Origin: Desulfovibrionaceae bacterium
Lineage (GTDB): Bacteria > Desulfobacterota > Desulfovibrionia > Desulfovibrionales > Desulfovibrionaceae
Assembly (NCBI GenBank): GCA_015233395.1
Contig: JADFXV010000014.1
Span: 1 to 49,635 of the forward strand
Length of the DNA stretch: 49,635 nt
Direction of reading: 5' to 3'
A program made the position numbers and the translations under genes. The notes beneath the pieces were generated by a model. It had not been told where the DNA came from and did no database searches. It was given only the letters and a program-made list of their open reading frames with translations. Of this stretch, positions 2,384-41,281 are shown piece after piece (the stretch's first letter is position 1; every line of letters begins with the position of its first letter).

Positions 2384-3271
2384 CTAGGCCAGGCCGGCGG
2401 CGAAATTTTCGAAGTCCCTGCCGGCGTACAGCGCGTGCAGTTCGGCCAGGACCCTGTCCCGGTCCAGATGGAGTTTGGCGAGGACGTCGCTCCAGTCGCA
2501 GGACGACGGCGCTTCCGGGTCGGTCAGGGACAGAACGAGGGCGTCGGCCAGGCACAGGATCAGGGCTTGCTTCCTGTACTCCGGGGCGACCATGGGGGAA
2601 TGGTGCCAATTGACCGGTTCGGTGAGTTCCGGCGGCAGATTCCAGGATTTGAGCGTCATGGAGCCGACCACGCCGTGCTCCAGGGCCCAGTGGGCGTCCT
2701 CGGCCTCGTGCGTGGGCAGGCCCGCTTCGCGGGCTGCCGCGTCGATGGCCAGCCAGTCGGCCGGGGCATGGATGGCGATGAGCAGTTTGCCCAGGTCGTG
2801 GAGCAGGCCGCTGGTGAAGAGATCGTCGGGACTCTCCAGATGCGTAAGCGAGGCCAAAAGCTTGGCGGCCATGCCCACGCGCAGTTGATGCCCCCAGTAG
2901 GCCGTGAAGTCGAAGGCTTCGGGCGGCTTTTTGCTCTTGCCCATGGCGGCCACGCCCACGGCCACGACGATGCTTTTGATCTCGTTGAGCCCGAGCACCG
3001 CGATCGCCCGGGAAACGTTGGTCACCTGGGCTTGCAGGCCGTAGAACGCGGAGTTGGCCGTGCGCAGCAGCTTGGCGGTCAGGCCCTGGTCGCGTTCGAT
3101 GGTTGCGGCGATTTCTTCGAGCGGGCTGGCGGAGTTGTCGCCGGTCTGGGTAAATATCTTCTGCAGGATCACCGGGGAAAACGGCAGATCGTTCTTGAAC
3201 GCGGACAGTTTGAGCAGGAGTTGCTGGGCCCGGTCGATGGCCTGGCGTTTTTCCTCGATGCTTCGTTGCAT
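2384..3271 (-). CDS. HDOD domain protein
   Basis: A 295-residue protein made almost entirely of an HDOD domain, a catalytically dead relative of HD phosphohydrolases found in bacterial signalling proteins. The domain starts around residue 20 (LPFSPVILQKIF), runs through DQGLTAKLLRTANSAFYGL and AIAVLGLNEIKSIV, and contains the helical segment SGLLHDLGKLLIAIH near residue 145. That HDLGK stretch keeps the HD pair, so residual metal binding is possible. HDOD proteins usually act as output or scaffold modules in motility, biofilm or stress control; no specific partner is visible here. It is followed by cysQ at 13 bp. The start lacks a strong ribosome site. Confidence 0.85.
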   Translation of the reverse strand: MQRSIEEKRQAIDRAQQLLLKLSAFKNDLPFSPVILQKIFTQTGDNSASPLEEIAATIERDQGLTAKLLRTANSAFYGLQAQVTNVSRAIAVLGLNEIKSIVVAVGVAAMGKSKKPPEAFDFTAYWGHQLRVGMAAKLLASLTHLESPDDLFTSGLLHDLGKLLIAIHAPADWLAIDAAAREAGLPTHEAEDAHWALEHGVVGSMTLKSWNLPPELTEPVNWHHSPMVAPEYRKQALILCLADALVLSLTDPEAPSSCDWSDVLAKLHLDRDRVLAELHALYAGRDFENFAAGLA

Positions 3272-3356
3272 GCAGTGTCGCTATGCCGCGCGGGCCCTGG
3301 CCTGGCGGGACCGGCAGGACCGGCGGGCTTGGCGGACTCCGGGCGCGCCGGTCCGG

Positions 3357-4298
3357 TTATTCATCGAGATTGATGGGCGCGTTCGAGCGCGGCGTTGCGG
3401 GCGGCGTTTCGCCGGACTGCCCCTCGCCGGACTGCCCTTCGCCGGAGGGCGCGGCCCCGGGCGGCGGGGCTCCCGGGACCAGGCCGGGAAGCAGGTTCTT
3501 GGCCGCGATGTAGTCCAAAAACTGCTTGGCCGCGGGCAGGTCAGGGTTCAGGCCGAGGGCCTTGTTCAAGTATTCGACGCATTGCCGGTATTGGCTCTTT
3601 TCGAAAAAAGCCCTGGCCGTGTTGTAAAACAGATTTTCGTCCTGCGGGGAGAGGTCCTCGGCGCGTTTGTAATAGTCCAGGGCCTGATCGTACATCTTGT
3701 TCTTGCGCAGGTTGATGCCGAATTCGTTGAACAGGTGCTTGTGTTCCTTCTCGAACGCGGCGTCGAGCTTGACCAGGCGTTCGAAGATGTCGTTGGCCTT
3801 GTTGGCTTCGCCGCGATCGAGATAGGTCAGCCCCAGACCGAAATTGGCCCGGACGTTCTCCTCGTCGACGTTGAGCGCCGTGTGGAATTCCAATTCGGCG
3901 GAAAAGATCTCGCCCTTGCTGCGGTGCTTTTCGCCCTTGACGATGGTCGCCTCGAGCTCGCGCAGGCGCGGATAGACGGTCGAGACGTAAAACTCGGGCT
4001 CGGGCGAGAAGTTCGCCAGCAGCTCGTCCAGGGAAATCGTGCGCTTGGGCCCGGTGGGGACGTAATTTTTGTTGAGCGGCTGGAGTTCGATCGCGCCTTC
4101 GGTCCGCTCCTCGGCCATCCAGTACATCTTCTGGATGATCTTGCGGGTGGTTGTTCCGGTGCCGACCTTTTGAATCATCTGGCTGGAAAAGACGCCCTTG
4201 ATCCGTTCCTTGCGCGCCGCCTCGCCGGCGGGGCGGCCCGGCGCGGCGTCGCCCGGGGGCTTGCCCGGGCCGGGAGTCTGGCCTTGGTCAACGGTCAT
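3357..4298 (-). CDS. Tetratricopeptide repeat protein with low-complexity tail
   Basis: A 313-residue soluble protein. Residues 1-30 are Gly/Pro-rich, about 30-130 carry a conserved-looking region (GVFSSQMIQKVGTGTTTRK), and about 130-265 contain TPR helices, for example ALNVDEENVRANFGLGLTYLDRG, split here as ALNVDEENVRAN and FGLGLTYLDRG, and later ALDYYKRAEDLSPQDENLFY. TPR arrays mediate protein contacts; no enzymatic motif is present. The C-terminal tail contains GEGQS repeated twice, encoded by a 15-bp tandem repeat near 3411-3450. The start is supported by AAGGA about 8 nt upstream. It lies downstream of gmk on the same strand. The function is unknown. Confidence 0.8.
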   Translation of the reverse strand: MTVDQGQTPGPGKPPGDAAPGRPAGEAARKERIKGVFSSQMIQKVGTGTTTRKIIQKMYWMAEERTEGAIELQPLNKNYVPTGPKRTISLDELLANFSPEPEFYVSTVYPRLRELEATIVKGEKHRSKGEIFSAELEFHTALNVDEENVRANFGLGLTYLDRGEANKANDIFERLVKLDAAFEKEHKHLFNEFGINLRKNKMYDQALDYYKRAEDLSPQDENLFYNTARAFFEKSQYRQCVEYLNKALGLNPDLPAAKQFLDYIAAKNLLPGLVPGAPPPGAAPSGEGQSGEGQSGETPPATPRSNAPINLDE

Positions 4299-5323: not shown

Positions 5324-5340
5324 AAGAGAACGCCTCCGGC

Positions 5341-5508
5341 GGCCGGGGATTAACTGCGAGTAAGCGAAGGAAGACCTTCGCAACTCGCAGTTGAACCCCC
5401 GGACCCCCTCGACAAGGGGGGACAATTGTTTCTTGTCTACACCATAAAAGTTTTTTGGAGGAGGGGGTTCGGGGGAGGAACCTTTTGTTCACAAAAGGTT
5501 CCTCCCCC
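5341..5508. repeat. Composite repeat: nested AACTGCGAG hairpin plus TTCA-loop hairpin
   Basis: Two structures fill the remA upstream gap. At 5352-5392 AACTGCGAG pairs with CTCGCAGTT and inside it GCGAAGG pairs with CCTTCGC. This unit is nearly identical to 31604-31644, with one substitution. It sits between GGCCGGGGAT and GAACCCCCGGACCCCC, the flanks of the ATGATC-centred module seen elsewhere. Then, after an AT-rich spacer and AAAAGTTTTTTGG, 5471-5487 (GGGGGAGGAACCTTTTG) pairs perfectly over 17 bp with 5492-5508 around a TTCA loop. No T run follows on the plus strand. It separates yicC from remA and could act as a terminator or processing site. Confidence 0.8.
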
Positions 5509-13384: not shown

Positions 13385-13560
13385 CCGGAGTCCAGAGGAG
13401 GCTCTGCCTCCGCTGGGGCTTCGCCCCAGCCCCCCATGGCAAGGGGATCGGCTGAGCCCATTGCCGAGGGGGTCCGGGGGGGATCATCCCCCCCGGCGGG
13501 GATCCAAGGGGCAGCGCCCCCTGGCCCCCGGAGGGCGCGGGGGCCAGGGGCAAAGTCCCA
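13385..13560. repeat. Modular GC-rich hairpin repeat between dnaA and the MFS gene
   Basis: Successive short inverted repeats: GGAGGCTCTGCCTCC, CTGGGGCTTCGCCCCAG, a GGCAA...TTGCC stem, GGGGGGGATCATCCCCCCC, GGGGC-AGC-GCCCC, then CCCCGGAGGGCGCGGGGG. The same module types recur at 17156, 18492, 22226, 27635, 31566 and 40058. Read-through translation of this stretch gives only Gly/Pro/Ala-rich sequence, so it is not part of the next gene. Confidence 0.85.
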
Positions 13561-17155: not shown

Positions 17156-17365
17156 CATGGAGGCGGAGGGCGCTGCCCCCCCCGCGCCCTCCGGGGGCCA
17201 AGGGGCGCTGCCCCTTGGATCCCCGCCGGGGGCGATGATCGCCCCCGGACCCCCACGGCAGGGGCGCGGCCGTGTCCCCTGACGCGGGGGTCCGGGGGGC
17301 ATCATGCCCCCCGGCGGGGTCTGGGGCGGAGCCCCAGCGGAGGAGTCCAGAGGAGGCGGCGCCCC
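17156..17365. repeat. Modular GC-rich hairpin repeat upstream of asd
   Basis: Contains, in reverse orientation to 13385, a GGGCGCTGCCC hairpin, the CCAAGGGGC-loop-GCCCCTTGG unit, GGGGGCGATGATCGCCCCC, a GGCAGGGG...CCCCTGACGC segment, GGGGGGCATCATGCCCCCC, CTGGGGCGGAGCCCCAG and a GAGGAG...CCAGAGGAGG part. Two ATGATC/ATCATG modules occur in one copy, as at 22226. The 340-bp gap to asd holds nothing else I can support except GGGGGA ahead of the asd start. Confidence 0.85.
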
Positions 17366-18491: not shown

Positions 18492-18595
18492 CCGGGGCTT
18501 TGCCCCAGACCCCACCGGGGGGGCATGACCCCCAATTGCCGGGGGCGATCATCGCCCCCGGTGGGGATCCAAGGGGCAAAGCCCCTTGGCAACTT
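18492..18595. repeat. Modular GC-rich hairpin repeat after asd
   Basis: CGGGGCTTTGCCCCAG starts four bases past the asd stop, followed by CACCGGGGGGGCATGACCCC, CCGGGGGCGATCATCGCCCC and CCAAGGGGC-AAA-GCCCCTTGG, which ends 15 nt before the next gene. The whole gap between asd and the aminotransferase is this repeat. Confidence 0.85.
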
Positions 18596-20816: not shown

Positions 20817-21147
20817 GAGTAAGAGGAAGAGAATCGGGGGGAAACTTTTTTGAAAAAAAGTTTCCCCCCGAACCCCCCTTCAAAAAACTTTTTTCGGGCC
20901 GTTGCGCCCCTTTTCGCCAAGGCGAAAAGGGGCGCAACGGCCCGAAGACGTTTTTTGAAATGGGGTTGAGGGGAAATTGTTCAGGGCCGCAGATTCGGAA
21001 ATCGGATCGCAGTGGTGAAAGGCGGAGCGATGCGATGGGCAAACCGGCATCGTGTAGGGGCGGTTCGCGTATCGCCTTCTTCTCTGACGGGCCGTCGTGG
21101 CCTGGCCTGGGTTGCGGGCGGTCGTCTTTTTGCGGGAGTTCTCTTTC
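20817..21147. repeat. Two-hairpin intergenic unit with a 26-bp perfect palindrome
   Basis: Hairpin 1 pairs 20836-20852 (CGGGGGGAAACTTTTTT) with 20855-20871, 17 bp. Hairpin 2 has an outer stem, CCCC-TTCAAAAAAC against GTTTTTTGAAATGGGG, which encloses a perfect 26-bp inverted repeat: TTCGGGCCGTTGCGCCCC-TTTTCGCC at 20894-20919 with its complement at 20922-20947, separated by AA. The same arrangement with a different inner palindrome occurs at 37919-38050 and, reversed, at 41361-41471. The rest of this 331-bp gap has no supported gene. It is probably the proC terminator region. Confidence 0.85.
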
Positions 21148-22225: not shown

Positions 22226-22436
22226 GGACCAGAGGAGGCTCCGCCTCCTCTGAGCTCCTCCGCCGGGGGCGATGATCGCCCCCGGACCCCCACGGCAGGG
22301 GGCGCGGCTGAGCCCCCTGACGCGGGGGTCCGGGGGGCATCATGCCCCCCGGTGGGGTTCCAAGGGGCAAAGCCCCTTGGCCCCCGGAGGGCGCGGCGGG
22401 GTCCAGGGGCAGCGCCCCTGGCGCCCCTGGGGCGCT
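22226..22436. repeat. Modular GC-rich hairpin repeat before the M50 protease
   Basis: Order of units: CAGAGGAGGCTCCGCCTCCT, GGGGGCGATGATCGCCCCC, CACGGCAGGGGGCGCGG followed by CTGAGCCCCCTGACGC, GGGGGGCATCATGCCCCCC, CCAAGGGGC-AAA-GCCCCTTGG, CCCCGGAGGGCGCGG, and CCAGGGGCAGCGCCCCTGG. It is the most complete copy, and its central part closely repeats 17215-17330. Confidence 0.87.
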
Positions 22437-26437: not shown

Positions 26438-28960
26438 ATGCCTGACAGTACCTTGTATCGCCGTCGTTTGACCATTGCCGGGCAGGTCCAGGGCGTGGGT
26501 TTCCGTCCGTTCGTCTATCGCCTGGCCGGACGGGAGGGCTTGACCGGGTTTGCCTTCAACGACGTCCGGGGGGTGGTGGTCGAGCTCCAGGGCAGTCTTG
26601 AGGCGCTCGGGCGTTTCGGCGCCGGTCTGACCGGGGAAGCGCCGCCGCTGGCCCGGATCGTCACAGTCGTCTCCGAGGATGTCGAGCCCGTGCCGGGAGA
26701 GACGGCTTTCGGCATCAGGCAAAGCCTGGCAGGGACCGGGCACGCCGTGCTCATCGCGCCGGACACGGCCGTGTGCCCGGATTGCCTGGCCGAGATGTTT
26801 AATCCCGCAAATCGCCGTTATCTCTATCCTTTCACCAACTGCACCAACTGCGGCCCGCGCCACACCATCACCCGGACCATCCCGTACGACCGGCCGGGCA
26901 CGTCCATGGCCTGCTTTCCCTTGTGCCCCGCCTGCGAACGCGAATACCGCGATCCGGCCGACCGCCGTTTCCACGCCCAGCCCAACGCCTGTCCCGAATG
27001 CGGCCCGCATGTCCGGCTGGCGGACGCCTCGGGGGCGACGCTGGCCGAACGCGGCGAGGCCCTGGAGCGTTGCGCGCGCCTGCTCGCCGGGGGAAACGTC
27101 GTGGCCGTCAAGGGCCTGGGCGGCTTTCATCTGTGCTGCGACGCGGCCTCGGACGCCGCCGTGGCCCGTTTGCGAGCGCGCAAGGGCCGGCCGAACAAGC
27201 CTCTCGCGGTCATGGTCGCGGACGCCCAAACGGCCAAGTCCCTGGCCCGGGTCGACGAGGCGAGCGCGGCGCTGCTCACCGGCCACATCCGGCCGATCGT
27301 TTTGTGCCGGGCAATCGCGGACGCGGGACTGAGCGCGCTGATCGCCCCGGACACGGACGCGCTCGGGCTGATGCTGCCGTACACCCCCCTGCACCAGGTC
27401 CTGTTCCACCATTATCGGCGCGAGCTCCGGTCGCTTGCGCCCGGCCGGACGGCGGCCCTGGTCATGACCTCGGGCAATATTTCCGGCGAGCCCATCTGCC
27501 TGGGCAACCGCGAGGCGGCGCGCCGCCTCGGCGCCATCGCCGACGCCTTCCTTTTCCACAACCGCGACATCTTGATCCGCACCGACGATTCGGTCGTGCG
27601 CTGCCTGCCCGCGCCCGACGGCCAGCCATATGCTTCTGGGGCTCCGCCCCAGACCCCGCCGGGGGGGATGATCCCCCCCGGACCCCCTCAAAGGGGGCCG
27701 GGGGCGCCCGCTGCGTCCGGTGCGCCGGGCTGCTTGTATTACCGCAGGGCCAGAGGGTACGTGCCGGGTCCGGTGTTTTTGGCCGGCGACGCTCCGCCGG
27801 TTTTGGGGCTGGGGCCGCTGCTCAAATGCACCGTGACCCTGACCAAGGGCGACCGGGCCTTTGTCAGCCAGCACATCGGCGATCTGGAGAATCTGGAGAC
27901 GTACGCCTTCTACAGGGAAACCATCGCCCACATGCGGCGCGTGCTCACGGCCGAGCCGGTCCTGGCCGTGCGCGACGCCCATCCCGATTACCTGAGCAGC
28001 CGGCACGCAGCCGAACTCGGCATTCCGGCGGTCGAGCTGCAGCACCATTTCGCCCACATCCACGCCGTGCTGGCCGAGCACCGCTTCGAGGGTCCGGCGC
28101 TGGGCCTGGCGCTCGACGGCTCGGGCTACGGCCTGGACGGCACGGTCTGGGGCGGGGAGGGGCTGTACGTGCATCCCCGGGCGCTGGTCAACGAACGCCT
28201 GGGCAGGCTTACGCCCGTGGCCATGCCCGGCGGCGAAGCGGCCATCCGCGAGCCCTGGCGCATGGCCCAGAGCTATCTCGCCGCCATCGGGGAGAAGGAG
28301 CCAAGCGGCCGGGCCTGGACCTGGCTTGAAGGGCAAAAGCGCGCCCAGGCTTCGCGCCTGGTCGGCCAGATGCTGGAGAAGGGCGTCAATTGCCCGCGCA
28401 CTTCGAGTTGCGGCCGGCTGTTCGACGCCGTGGCCGGACTGCTCGGCCTGAGCCACGAGATCTCCTACGAAGGCCAGGCGGCCATCGTGCTGGAGCGCGT
28501 CCAGGACGCAAGCGAAACTCACGCCTACGAGGCGAGCGTCGCGCGCGCCGGGGAGCTCCTTGAACTGGACAGTCTTGGCCTGTTCGCCCAGGTGCTCGCC
28601 GACTGGCGCGCCGGGGTTCCGGCGCCGCGCATCAGCCGCCGCTTCCATCTCGGCCTGATCGCCGGGCTTGTCCGGCTGGCCGGGGACATGGCCGAGGCGA
28701 CCGGGATCGCGACCGTGGGCCTAAGCGGCGGGGCGATGCAAAACTTCACCCTGGCGACGCGCTTGCCGCGGGCGCTGCGCCTGGCCGGGCTCACCGCGCT
28801 GCGCCACGAGATCCTGCCGCCGGGCGACGCCTGCATTTCCCTTGGCCAGGCGGCCTACGGGCGGATGGCGCTGTGCTCCGGCCAAACTGGCCAAACTGGC
28901 CAATCGGTTCAGCCGGGCCAATCGGGCGGCGACGGTTTTTCGCGTGAGCCGGGCCGGTAA
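26438..28960 (+). CDS. hypF: Carbamoyltransferase HypF with in-frame repeat insertion
   Basis: HypF makes the CN ligands of the [NiFe] site from carbamoyl phosphate, handing the carbamoyl group to HypE. The 840-residue chain has an acylphosphatase domain (GQVQGVGFRPFVYRLA), two Cys4 zinc fingers (CPDCLAEM, CTNCGPR, CPACEREY, CPECGP), a YrdC domain (NVVAVKGLGGFHLCC) and a Kae1-like domain (QHHFAHIHAVLAEH, LALDGSGYGLDGTVWGGE). It is longer than the usual 750-780 residues. Residues about 400-432 are Gly/Pro-rich and encoded by a GC-rich intergenic-type repeat between DDSVVR and YYRRARGYVP. The C-terminus adds a GQTGQTGQS tail. The reading frame stays open. The 10-bp gap to usp suggests cotranscription. 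Confidence 0.95.
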   Translation: MPDSTLYRRRLTIAGQVQGVGFRPFVYRLAGREGLTGFAFNDVRGVVVELQGSLEALGRFGAGLTGEAPPLARIVTVVSEDVEPVPGETAFGIRQSLAGTGHAVLIAPDTAVCPDCLAEMFNPANRRYLYPFTNCTNCGPRHTITRTIPYDRPGTSMACFPLCPACEREYRDPADRRFHAQPNACPECGPHVRLADASGATLAERGEALERCARLLAGGNVVAVKGLGGFHLCCDAASDAAVARLRARKGRPNKPLAVMVADAQTAKSLARVDEASAALLTGHIRPIVLCRAIADAGLSALIAPDTDALGLMLPYTPLHQVLFHHYRRELRSLAPGRTAALVMTSGNISGEPICLGNREAARRLGAIADAFLFHNRDILIRTDDSVVRCLPAPDGQPYASGAPPQTPPGGMIPPGPPQRGPGAPAASGAPGCLYYRRARGYVPGPVFLAGDAPPVLGLGPLLKCTVTLTKGDRAFVSQHIGDLENLETYAFYRETIAHMRRVLTAEPVLAVRDAHPDYLSSRHAAELGIPAVELQHHFAHIHAVLAEHRFEGPALGLALDGSGYGLDGTVWGGEGLYVHPRALVNERLGRLTPVAMPGGEAAIREPWRMAQSYLAAIGEKEPSGRAWTWLEGQKRAQASRLVGQMLEKGVNCPRTSSCGRLFDAVAGLLGLSHEISYEGQAAIVLERVQDASETHAYEASVARAGELLELDSLGLFAQVLADWRAGVPAPRISRRFHLGLIAGLVRLAGDMAEATGIATVGLSGGAMQNFTLATRLPRALRLAGLTALRHEILPPGDACISLGQAAYGRMALCSGQTGQTGQSVQPGQSGGDGFSREPGR
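27635..27706. repeat. Repeat module inserted inside hypF
   Basis: Within the hypF frame lie CTGGGGCTCCGCCCCAG and GGGGGGGATGATCCCCCCC, then GGACCCCCTC and AAAGGGGGCCGGGGG, the same units as in intergenic copies at 31566 and 40058. Translated they give APPQTPPGGMIPPGPP and similar, the low-complexity insert at residues 402-423 or so. Confidence 0.9.
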
Positions 28961-31565: not shown

Positions 31566-31680
31566 AACTGGGGCTTCGCCCCAGGCCCCGCCCGGGGGGG
31601 ATTAACTGCGAGTAAGCGAAGCAAGACCTTCGCAACTCGCAGTTGAACCCCCCGGCCCCCCTCGACGGGGGGGTGGGCAA
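31566..31680. repeat. Modular repeat with nested AACTGCGAG hairpin upstream of gcvT
   Basis: CTGGGGCTTCGCCCCAG is followed by a module whose two halves (CCCGGGGGGGAT and GAACCCCCCGGCCCCCC) are separated by the 41-bp AACTGCGAG...CTCGCAGTT hairpin (31604-31644), which differs by one base from 5352-5392. CTCGACGGGGGGG ends the module. AAAGTTTTTTGGGGG and a further G/C tract follow at 31706-31755. Confidence 0.87.
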
Positions 31681-37432: not shown

Positions 37433-37936
37433 GTGCCGACCCCGGGCCTGACCCTCACCCTCCCGGCCGAGGCCGACACCCTGCGCCTCGGCCGCATCCT
37501 GGCCGAAACAGCGCCGCCTTCCGCCGTCCTGCTCCTGGCCGGCGCGCTCGGCAGCGGTAAAACCTCCCTGGTCAGAGGCTTGACCCTGGCCCTGCCGGGC
37601 GGCGACCGCGCCGAAATCGCCTCCCCCAGCTTCACCCTGTACAATCTTTACCCGACCAGCCCGCCCGTGGCCCACTTCGACCTCTACCGCCTGGGCGCGG
37701 GCCGGCCGGACGCCGAATACTTCGAGTGGCTCGACGAAATCGAAGCCGGACGCCCGGCCCTGCTCGCCCTGGAATGGCCCGAACGGCTCGGCCAAGACGA
37801 TCTGCCGGGCGACTACCTGCTCGCGCGTCTGACCATGGCCCCTCCCGGACGCGCGGCGGCCCTGACGGCCCACGGCCCCACGGCGCGGCGATGGCTGGAG
37901 AGAGTGGAGGAAGAAAACCGGGGGGAAACTTTTTGA
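37433..37936 (+). CDS. tsaE: tRNA threonylcarbamoyladenosine ATPase subunit TsaE
   Basis: A 167-residue ATPase needed with TsaB and TsaD to make t6A at tRNA position 37, the substrate that MtaB (6980-8260) modifies further. The P-loop is GALGSGKTSLVRGL near residue 42, then SPSFTLYNLYP and AHFDLYRLGAG, the TsaE signatures. Start is GTG 37433 with a weak ribosome site. The last codons (NRGETF and stop) come from the left arm of an intergenic hairpin (37919-37934), so the gene ends inside repeat DNA and its C-terminus may have been extended. Confidence 0.93.
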   Translation: MPTPGLTLTLPAEADTLRLGRILAETAPPSAVLLLAGALGSGKTSLVRGLTLALPGGDRAEIASPSFTLYNLYPTSPPVAHFDLYRLGAGRPDAEYFEWLDEIEAGRPALLALEWPERLGQDDLPGDYLLARLTMAPPGRAAALTAHGPTARRWLERVEEENRGETF

Positions 37937-38050
37937 AAAAAGTTTCCCCCCGCGCCCCTCTTCAAAAATTTTCATTCTTTGAGCCTGCCGACTCTTTTCG
38001 CGTCACGAAAAGAGCCGGCAGGCTCAAAGCTGGTTTTTGAAAAGGGAACG
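37919..38050. repeat. Two-hairpin intergenic unit after tsaE
   Basis: Hairpin 1: CGGGGGGAAACTTTTT (37919-37934) with its complement at 37937-37952, which supplies the tsaE stop. Hairpin 2: 37978-38000 pairs with 38006-38028 over 23 bp with one mismatch (TTTGAGCCTGCCG with CGGCAGGCTCAAA, then CTCTTTTCG with CGAAAAGAG), set inside TTCAAAAATTTTC against GGTTTTTGAAAAGGG. Same plan as 20836-20966 with an unrelated inner palindrome. Confidence 0.85.
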
Positions 38051-38758: not shown

Positions 38759-38983
38759 ATGTGCCTGGCAATCCCCATGGAGATCAAATCCATCGACGGG
38801 CCGGTGGCCAACGTCGAAATATCGGGCGTGACCAAACAGGTCCGGCTCGACCTGATGAGCGAGGAAGCGAGCGTCGGCGATTATGTCATCGTCCACGCCG
38901 GGTTCGCCATTTCCCGGCTGGACCGCGAACAAGCCCTGGAAACGCTTGAGATCTTCAAGGAGTTGCGCCTTGACGCCTTTTGA
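38759..38983 (+). CDS. hypC: Hydrogenase maturation chaperone HypC
   Basis: A 74-residue chaperone that carries the Fe(CN)2CO unit with HypD and delivers it to the hydrogenase large subunit. The start is set by the essential Cys2: MCLAIPMEIKSIDGPVAN begins at ATG 38759, nine nt after GGAGG. An ATG two codons earlier at 38753 would bury the cysteine. The body (RLDLMSEEASVGDYVIVHAG) is a typical HypC beta-barrel. It overlaps hypD by 14 nt. Confidence 0.96.
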   Translation: MCLAIPMEIKSIDGPVANVEISGVTKQVRLDLMSEEASVGDYVIVHAGFAISRLDREQALETLEIFKELRLDAF

Positions 38984-40052
38984 TTCCTTCAAAAATCCGG
39001 ACTTGTGCCGCGCCCTGCTCGGCAAGCTCGAAGCCGCGCTCGATAAACCCATGCGCTTCATGGAAGTCTGCGGCACCCACACCGTGGCCATTTTCCACAG
39101 CGGGCTGCATTCGCTTCTGCCCAGTCAACTCGTCCACCTGACCGGCCCCGGCTGCCCGGTCTGCGTCACCCACGAATCCGAAGTCGCCGCCTTCATCGAA
39201 CTGGCGGGCAAGGACGGCGTGATCGTGGCCACCTTCGGCGACCTGATGAAAGTCCCGGGACCCGGCGGCGCCAATCTCAAAAAAGCCCAGGCCGAAGGCG
39301 CCCGCGTCGAGGTCGTCTACTCGCCGTTTGACGCCCTGGCCCTGGCCCGCGACAATCCCGCGAGCAAAGTCGTTTTCCTTGGCGTCGGCTTTGAGACCAC
39401 GGCCCCGGCCGTGGCCGCCACGGTCAAAATCGCCAGGGAACAAAAACTGGACAATTTCCTTCTGCTCAGCTTTCACAAGCTGGTCCCGCCGGCGCTGCGC
39501 GCCCTGCTGGCCGACCCGTTCATGAGCATCGAGGCCTTCTTGCTGCCCGGCCACGTCTCGGCCATCATCGGCCTGGCCGCCTACAAATTCATCGAGGACT
39601 ACCACGTCCCGGCCGTGATCGCCGGTTTCGAACCCGTGGACATCCTCACCTCCCTGCTGCTCATGGTCGAACAACGCAAAAAGGGCGAAGCCAAGGTGGT
39701 CAACGGTTATCCCCGCGTGGTCCCGGACGCGGGCAACCCCAAAGCCCTGGCCACGATGTACGAGGTCTTCAAGACCAGCGACGCGCTCTGGCGCGGCATC
39801 GGCGCGATCCCGGACAGCGGACTCGTCCTGGCCGACGCCTACGCGCAATGCGACGCCTTCAAAGTCCTGGACATCACGCTCAAGGAATCCAAGCCCCTGC
39901 CCGGCTGCCGCTGCGGCGACGTGCTCAAAGGCATACTCAAACCCAACGAGTGCCCGCTCTATAAAAAAGTCTGCACCCCGGCCAATCCGGTCGGACCCTG
40001 CATGGTCTCAACCGAAGGCAGCTGCGCCGCCTACTACAAGTATCAGTTGTAA
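38970..40052 (+). CDS. hypD: Hydrogenase maturation protein HypD
   Basis: A 360-residue [4Fe-4S] protein that assembles Fe(CN)2CO with HypC. Conserved cysteine motifs are EVCGTHTVAIFHSGL near residue 30, GPGCPVCVTHESE near residue 58 and GFETTAPAVAATV, with the C-terminal cluster ligands in LPGCRCGDVLKGILKPNECP and GPCMVSTEGSCAAYYKY. The best start is TTG 38970, eight nt after AAGGAG; ATG starts further upstream lie within hypC in another reading and lack support. The gene overlaps hypC. Confidence 0.95.
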   Translation: MTPFDSFKNPDLCRALLGKLEAALDKPMRFMEVCGTHTVAIFHSGLHSLLPSQLVHLTGPGCPVCVTHESEVAAFIELAGKDGVIVATFGDLMKVPGPGGANLKKAQAEGARVEVVYSPFDALALARDNPASKVVFLGVGFETTAPAVAATVKIAREQKLDNFLLLSFHKLVPPALRALLADPFMSIEAFLLPGHVSAIIGLAAYKFIEDYHVPAVIAGFEPVDILTSLLLMVEQRKKGEAKVVNGYPRVVPDAGNPKALATMYEVFKTSDALWRGIGAIPDSGLVLADAYAQCDAFKVLDITLKESKPLPGCRCGDVLKGILKPNECPLYKKVCTPANPVGPCMVSTEGSCAAYYKYQL

Positions 40053-40057
40053 ATTCC

Positions 40058-40240
40058 GGCGGCCAAGGGGCTGCGCCTCTTGGAACCCCGCCGGGGGGGA
40101 TGATCCCTCCCGGACCCCCTCGACGGGGACATGAACTTGGAAAGTAGATATTCAGTATATTTGTCCGTAATGTAAAAGTTTTTTGGGGGAAGGGGGGTCT
40201 GGGGGGAAACCCCCTTTTGTTCACAAAAGGGGGTTCCCCT
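40058..40240. repeat. Composite repeat between hypD and hypE
   Basis: The stop of hypD is followed by CCAAGGGGC-TGC-GCCTCTTGG, GGGGGGGATGATCCCTCCC, CCCCCTCGACGGGG, a variable AT-rich spacer (about 40132-40170), AAAAGTTTTTTGGGGGAAGG, then a hairpin GGGGAAACCCCCTTTTG against CAAAAGGGGGTTCCCC with a TTCA loop (40203-40239). Its order is the reverse complement of 1-118. It lies inside the hyp operon yet ends only 34 nt before hypE. Confidence 0.85.
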
Positions 40241-40273
40241 CAGTCTTCCTCTCCACCCCCAAAAGGATTTCCC

Positions 40274-41281
40274 ATGACGATTGAGCGCGTACTTCTCGAT
40301 TACGGCAGCGGCGGGCAGGCTTCGCACCGGTTGGTGAACGAGTTGTTTTTGAAGCATCTGGGCAACGCGGTTTTGTCGGTGCTCGACGACGCCGCGCGGC
40401 TGGACATCGCCGGTCCGCTGGCCATGAGCACGGACAGTTTCGTGGTCGACCCGATCTTTTTCCCGGGCGGCGACATCGGCGCCTTGGCGGTGCACGGCAC
40501 GGTCAACGACGTGGCCATGCTCGGAGCCAGGCCCAGGTATCTGACGTGCGGTTTCATTTTGGAAGAGGGGTTGCCGATCGAGGATCTGGAGAAAATCGTC
40601 GCCTCCATGGGCGCCGCCGCGGCCGAGGCCGGAGTGTTGATCGTGGCCGGCGACACCAAGGTCGTGCCCAGGGGCATGGCGGACAAGATTTTCATCAACA
40701 CCACCGGCATCGGCGAGATTTTCGCTTCTCCCGCGCCCAGCGGCCACCGGGCCGCGCCGGGCGACGCCGTGCTCATCAGCGGCACGCTCGGCGACCACGG
40801 GTTGGCCATCTTGTCCACGCGTCAGGGCTTGTCGTTCGACGCGCCGGTGGCGAGCGACTGCGCCTCGCTGAACCATCTCATCGTGAAAGTGATCGAGGCC
40901 GCCGGCGACGTCCACGTATTGCGCGACCCGACCCGGGGGGGCCTGGCCACCACGCTCAACGAGATCGCCGGCCAGTCCGGGGTGGGGGTGTTCATCGAGG
41001 AGTCGTTGATACCGGTCAAGCCGGCCGTGGCCGCCGGGTGTTCGTTTCTCGGCCTGGACCCGTTGTACCTGGCCAACGAAGGCAAGTTCATCTGCATTCT
41101 GCCCGAGGCGAACGCGCAGGCCGCCTTGGCCGTCATGCGCGCCGATCCGCTCGGGGCGGACGCCGTGCGCATCGGCGTCGTCAGGGCCGAGCATCCCGGC
41201 AAAGTCGTCATGACCACGCCGCTTGGCGGCCAGCGCCTGATGGGCATGCTGGAGGGCGAGCAGCTCCCGCGCATTTGTTAG
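40274..41281 (+). CDS. hypE: Hydrogenase maturation protein HypE
   Basis: A 335-residue PurM-like enzyme that accepts carbamoyl from HypF at its C-terminal Cys and dehydrates it to thiocyanate for CN transfer to HypCD. Seen are LDYGSGGQASHRLVNELFL, DDAARLDIAGPLAMSTDSF, PGGDIGALAVHGTVNDVAML, VAGDTKVVPRGMADKIFINT and DPTRGGLATTLNEIAGQSGV, ending in PRIC with the essential terminal Cys. AAAAGGATTT precedes the ATG at 40274. Partner HypF is 11 kb upstream. HypA and HypB are not in the window. Confidence 0.96.
   Translation: MTIERVLLDYGSGGQASHRLVNELFLKHLGNAVLSVLDDAARLDIAGPLAMSTDSFVVDPIFFPGGDIGALAVHGTVNDVAMLGARPRYLTCGFILEEGLPIEDLEKIVASMGAAAAEAGVLIVAGDTKVVPRGMADKIFINTTGIGEIFASPAPSGHRAAPGDAVLISGTLGDHGLAILSTRQGLSFDAPVASDCASLNHLIVKVIEAAGDVHVLRDPTRGGLATTLNEIAGQSGVGVFIEESLIPVKPAVAAGCSFLGLDPLYLANEGKFICILPEANAQAALAVMRADPLGADAVRIGVVRAEHPGKVVMTTPLGGQRLMGMLEGEQLPRIC

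Follow-up and report, generated by a model that had tools for sequence, protein, structure and literature searches.

The 49,635-nucleotide stretch analysed here (the window; contig JADFXV010000014.1 of a Desulfovibrionaceae bacterium) carries hypF, encoding the carbamoyltransferase HypF, and within the reading frame of this gene lies a segment that is one arm of a palindromic repeat dispersed through the same genome. The initial annotation, made from the window alone, had proposed an intergenic-type repeat in frame inside hypF at 27635-27733, and both the identity of the repeat and the integrity of the frame and of the two HypF halves hold on closer analysis. The features of the gene are the following.

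26438..28960, + strand: hypF, carbamoyltransferase HypF, 840 amino acids, intact (translation; Pfam domains; NCBIfam TIGR00143)
27636..27703, + strand: single in-frame arm of the dispersed palindromic repeat, residues about 400-422 (97% match to copy C112)
27636..27652, + strand: hairpin 1, CTGGGGC-TCC-GCCCCAG; 7 pairs, 100% of cells paired in 27 aligned arms
27659..27681, + strand: hairpin 2, CCGGGGGGGA-TGA-TCCCCCCCGG; 10 pairs, formed in 99.3% of cells, 3 of them changed on both sides
27683..27697, + strand: hairpin 3, CCCCC-TCAAA-GGGGG; loop one nt short of the TCGACA found in the intergenic copy that matches best
27704..27733, + strand: probably native linker codons (APAASGAPGC), non-repeat as judged by eye; remainder of the stretch first flagged

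Translation of 26438-28960 (+) gives a single open frame of 840 residues without an internal stop. Matches to five Pfam families cover acylphosphatase (10-92), two zf-HYPF stretches, YrdC (215-390), HypF_C (452-547) and HypF_C_2 (556-804), and the protein scores 735.6 bits against TIGR00143, well above the curated cut-off of 466.1. This gene encodes the sole HypF found in its genome. The intact frame and conserved domains suggest that the insert is tolerated and that the enzyme probably works.

The repeat is located between the codons for DDSVVR and those for YYRRARGYVP, and both modules named by the initial annotation are present there, CTGGGGC-TCC-GCCCCAG at 27636-27652 and CCGGGGGGGATGATCCCCCCCGG at 27659-27681. 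Its extent had been overestimated, since repeat-derived DNA makes up 68 nt (27636-27703) of the 99 nt flagged and the remainder is probably native. Matches elsewhere in the genome mostly begin at 27636-27638 and the best of them (C112, 97%) stops at 27703; the 3' edge can be placed only to within about 10 nt, as several gapped matches of 77-86% extend to 27708-27714. Compared with the C112 copy, the first 54 nt are identical, followed by TCAAA in place of TCGACA, one base shorter, and 36 nt (27654-27689) are the exact reverse complement of positions 13466-13501 of the window. The 87-nt stretch 27634-27720 had no match in a plasmid collection, and no known RNA family reached its gathering score in the window.

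The genome (3.37 Mb, 158 contigs) contains at least 61 matches to the hypF copy, itself included, the best other being 97% identical over 68 nt (E 5e-26), which rules out chance similarity of GC-rich DNA. The figure of 61 is a lower bound, as 40 of 205 candidates from a first look were scored, and some of the matches are the two arms of one pair. Arms are about 59-69 nt long and consist of the hairpins CTGGGGC-TCC-GCCCCAG and CCGGGGG..ATGAT..CCCCCGG; a third hairpin often comes after these. The 52 clusters in the stretches read, a non-random sample made up of the copies most like that in hypF, contain one arm in 29 cases and two in 23, the latter mostly arranged head to head over about 135 nt. 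A full pair of arms folds at -125.5 kcal/mol (z -7.24). For the arm alignment (A2), 75 arm matches were reduced to 28 distinct arms without length changes, of which 27 were used; L148:2184-2242, with a shifted G-run, was omitted. The arms of this alignment form their 17 stem pairs in 99.6% of cells, with changes on both sides in five pairs, and the covariation score was reached by none of 500 shuffles. What is kept seems to be the palindromes as well as the letters. The frame used in hypF is open in 26 of the 27 arms over 59 nt, and one forward frame is closed in 26 of 27. The repeat was found in 76 of 149 genomes of the family and in 25 of 44 genera, its own included; in a phylum sample (n = 138), the 134 genomes from outside the family yielded one weak match.

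A codon-based caller placed one of the 52 clusters, that of hypF, in frame within a gene. Under the same rule 978 of 2000 random positions in the window and 1233 of 2000 in the other stretches were called genic (49-62%), and the hypF copy is therefore exceptional, although the examined clusters are those most similar to it. The codon model was trained on 13 window genes; in leave-one-out tests 95% of true windows scored above 0.156 and 95% of wrong-frame windows below 0.154, about 16% of wrong-frame windows of 60 codons scoring above 0 and 5% above 0.154. An earlier codon model had been dropped because it gave an antisense frame of hypF a score equal to that of the sense frame. Several long open frames cross other copies. 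Nine of them were compared with Pfam, alongside HypF itself: five matched no family, and in the other four the domains all lay to one side of the repeat. The start codons of genes adjoining copies are not fixed, and short N-terminal overlaps are possible.

The insert site had been assigned to the linker between the YrdC and Kae1-like domains, and structure prediction agrees with this. An AlphaFold model built on a 30-row alignment has a mean predicted local distance difference test (pLDDT) score of 87.4, with values below 50 at residues 399-428 and at the C-terminal 820-840, and shows no secondary structure at 390-431, between well-folded YrdC and Kae1-like domains. In a Foldseek search the model matched HypF crystal structures (query-normalised TM-score, TMq, of 0.85 for 3vth_A and 0.72 for 3tsq from E. 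coli). When aligned by sequence to 3vth, the two halves are separated by eight residues in that protein (371 to 380) and by 46 here (387 to 434). The insert is thus predicted to form a disordered loop between the two domains.

These data are best explained if one arm of a palindromic repeat widespread in the family was inserted in frame into the disordered linker of HypF, a reading to which we assign a probability of roughly 0.8. A single arm of a high-copy repeat would have been copied into the linker between the YrdC-like and Kae1-like domains, adding about 23 codons in an open frame; the gene would have tolerated this selfish-type DNA, whose insertion was probably close to neutral. As a guess, the copying may have been driven by the hairpins, through either template switching or a tyrosine transposase acting in trans. 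The insertion is probably recent, because over its first 54 nt the arm does not differ from an intergenic copy.

Comparison with relatives covered 109 related hypF loci (107 distinct), the genome studied here being the only one of its genus in the comparison; the relatives compared are 45-62% identical. None had a repeat match at E<0.01 inside its HypF match. The linker from DDSV to RRxRGY was located in 106 of the 110 hypF genes, own included (108 distinct, as L025/L051 and L046/L108 are duplicates); it has 11 residues in 61 of these 106, 49 in the present gene and at most 91, and reaches 49 or more in four, own included. At L021, L039, L040 and several other loci one of two linker scripts was misanchored, making single lengths unreliable. 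In the family relatives the linkers span 12-49 residues with unrelated sequences; they differ from one another, contrary to the refuting case of a single linker shared by all relatives in unrelated codons. The estimate of about 33 extra residues comes close when measured against the common 11-residue linker, but the repeat supplies only about 23 of the 49. Since family linkers differ without any repeat, about 15 of the 38 extra residues are not repeat-derived, and the linkers of L022 and L024 have 29 residues where the present one minus the repeat has about 26 (by arithmetic and comparison by eye). One relative (L021, 2632-2760, - strand) has a linker with an internal near-duplication of the DDSVVRPHG motif.

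Growth of the linker by slippage or template switching on GC-rich DNA, followed by gene conversion from intergenic copies, would be consistent with the variable and unrelated family linkers, with the internal duplication visible in L021 and with the hypF copy being 1 nt shorter than its best match. However, 54 identical nt counted from the edge of hairpin 1, where the likeness of many copies also starts (an edge set by eye), favour insertion as a unit, and this route is considered improbable.

A functional role is slightly less probable still. The stretch concerned folds at -71.7 kcal/mol (z -2.95), which none of 200 shuffles equalled, and the encoded peptide has two Pro-Pro-Gly (PPG) motifs. 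PPG stalls ribosomes, and hairpins in the mRNA together with these codons could slow translation between the domains and aid their stepwise folding, for which the insert would have been kept. But the related hypF genes lack the element, most located linkers having 11 residues, and the intergenic copies carry the same hairpins. A false join driven by a high-copy repeat in a genome of 158 contigs is the least credible alternative, because both flanks are halves of the sole HypF, in one frame, so that the error would have had to rejoin the same gene, and the element is just 68 nt long.

Besides the copy proposed to have been inserted into hypF, the window contains the following copies of the repeat.

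13461..13520, - strand: copy between a dnaA-like gene and the region of a major facilitator superfamily (MFS) gene that matches Pfam
17202..17335, no strand assigned: head-to-head pair of arms between divergent alcohol dehydrogenase (ADH)-like and semialdehyde dehydrogenase genes
18494..18585, no strand assigned: pair of partial arms past the semialdehyde dehydrogenase stop
22237..22376, no strand assigned: head-to-head pair flanked by a ThiI-like gene and by the region of a peptidase M50 gene that matches Pfam
31570..31605, + strand: partial arm, upstream of where gcvT matches Pfam (start codon not fixed)
40067..40128, + strand: arm between hypD (stop at 40052) and hypE

In each case the position is after, between or upstream of gene parts that match Pfam. 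The last one separates hypD and hypE (38883-41278), about 10 kb downstream of hypF. Two other repeats were seen in the window. One is a terminator-like class with A/T runs (GGGGGGAAACTTTTT...AAAAAGTTTCCCCCC), at 20823-20870, 37907-37954, 1-49 and 40175-40223. The other is a 73-nt repeat, 90% identical between its copies at 5336-5408 and 31588-31660, with a palindromic core AACTGCGAGT...ACTCGCAGTT; its second copy overlaps the end of a partial hypF-type arm.

Dispersed repeats of another kind, of period 7, occur in frame in the same HypF linker of three other genomes. In a Desulfobacterales metagenome-assembled genome (MAG; L098) a (GAAACTG)n array of 33.6 copies (3194-3428) is in frame in the linker, and this stretch has 23 matches in its genome. 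A Chloroflexi MAG (L093, 7201-7240) carries a period-7/14 array there, with 43 matches in its genome, and genome G166 of the same phylum as the window (L189, 1374-1405) a period-7 array of 4.6 copies, with six; each count includes the array itself, and some matches are neighbouring pieces of one array. Period-7 arrays were also seen in other HypF loops (L118, L088, L189 and L093, in L093 between the zinc fingers and YrdC). Tandem repeats elsewhere in HypF were noted in L118 (amino acids 345-373), L088 (326-336), L093 (189-207), L060 (187-234) and L189 (1688-1716), at places that include the loop before TSGN and the stretch between zinc finger and YrdC. Arrays of non-triplet period were found in five of 110 hypF genes (256 kb) as against none of 88 HypD/HypE genes (90 kb), the latter having two triplet-period arrays.

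Other enzymes are affected as well. Period-7 arrays lie inside the match of two proteins scoring above the cut-off, MurD (L179, genome G149; array at 245-285, match 18-473) and MurG (L210, G166; 171-183 in 1-355). They also occur in a MurU-AmgK-like frame (L182), at 279-299 between two matches, neither of which reaches its curated cut-off, and in frame in a BioH-like protein (L208) that scores below the cut-off. At other array places an open frame spans the array in three of three cases in G166, in one of five in G150 and in five of five in G149, three of the last being sound (L181 is half masked and L178 is at a contig end). The MurD and MurG arrays indicate that repeats within conserved enzymes are not peculiar to the present gene nor, in those genomes, to HypF. 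It is tentatively proposed, at slightly less than even odds, that conserved bacterial enzymes recurrently gain loop and linker sequence from dispersed repeats of the intergenic type, the YrdC-Kae1 linker of HypF being a repeated landing site.

Several results run against these readings or weaken parts of them. One of the five covariation measures, that for further pair types, is no higher than in its shuffles, of which 462 out of 500 attain its value; structure is, moreover, not required for related copies to score above such shuffles. When the letters of one arm are shuffled, 4.5 of six frames are open on average, equal to the arms themselves, so that the open frames are only a by-product of GC content. 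The hypF copy measures 68 nt and its best match 69 nt; an in-frame insertion of 69 nt followed by loss of one base would break the frame, and the inserted unit or its edges must therefore have differed. Among the relatives, L044 carries a good repeat match (E 2e-7) that lies in the open frame, 55 nt upstream of where its HypF match begins; in L033 a hit falls within the HypF match, at chance level (E 1.8). The insertion event is inferred, as the relatives compared include no close one and neither an empty site nor a target duplication was observed. A miniature inverted-repeat transposable element (MITE) would show terminal inverted repeats and a target-site duplication; the head-to-head pairs here are inverted repeats, and inspection by eye gave no clear duplication. 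The two Y1_Tnp genes of the genome (L175, L176) had no arm match at E<=10 in the flanks fetched, the left flank of L175, 52 nt from a contig end, being missing. As for the heptamers, an open frame spans just one of five other arrays in G150, two of the five in G149 are unsound, and the enrichment of non-triplet arrays in hypF over HypD/HypE is suggestive only.

Among the papers listed by searches of open-licence literature, none dealt with repeats in hypF or with in-frame heptamers, and none, by title or the opening of the abstract, described this Desulfovibrionaceae repeat. Events of this kind are known, but these listings gave no precedent for the repeat family, the host gene or the parallel heptamer cases. 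Bacterial heptameric tandem repeats are described as mostly intergenic with a period of 7 (PMC4692102), the type seen in HypF of L093, L098 and G166; they form tandem arrays, not palindromes. Repetitive extragenic palindromic (REP) sequences, as defined in PMC12306157, are on record within genes (PMC3733652). Being dispersed, palindromic, mostly extragenic and often in opposite orientation, the present repeat fits the broad sense of REP or bacterial interspersed mosaic element (BIME), but its arm is a composite of two to three hairpins. GTAG or CTAC was present in one of 27 arms, and the CGTC tag in 11, with CGAC in nine and others in seven (CAAA in the hypF copy), so that by the tags tested the repeat is neither a GTAG nor a CGTC REP. 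A GTAG REP linked to a REP-associated tyrosine transposase (RAYT) was ruled out as its identity, no arm lying near the two Y1_Tnp genes in the flanks fetched.

The enterobacterial elements RU-1, RU-2 and RU-3 (ERIC, YPAL) are reported as small mobile intergenic repeats whose open frames can be fused in frame into genes (PMC2759123, PMC2229807). Compared by description, they differ from the present repeat in their length (103-168 bp) and hosts. Closer in kind are the Rickettsia palindromic elements (RPEs), of 105-146 bp and found in 19 reading frames (PMC2229807), where the inserted segments are reported in solvent-exposed areas (PMC3767692). Like the present repeat, they are palindromic, dispersed and intergenic but also in frame in conserved genes (PMC2229807, PMC3767692), and like them the hypF copy keeps the frame of a conserved gene, its site being at the surface or disordered. 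In contrast, the arm here is 68 nt long and one of 52 examined clusters is genic; the likeness is one of description. An RPE-bearing enzyme, Gmk, is reported to have kept its activity with changed substrate affinity (PMC2229807). By analogy with this closest precedent, the hypF insert may work like an RPE insertion. In-frame insertion of palindromic repeats, best known from Rickettsia, would then extend to a repeat widespread in a family of sulfate-reducer relatives, and to a hydrogenase-maturation enzyme with solved structures, in which its effect could readily be tested. The heptamer cases suggest that conserved enzymes receive loop sequence from repeats more often than the word 'extragenic' would lead one to expect, and that the sites at which such repeats survive include inter-domain linkers.
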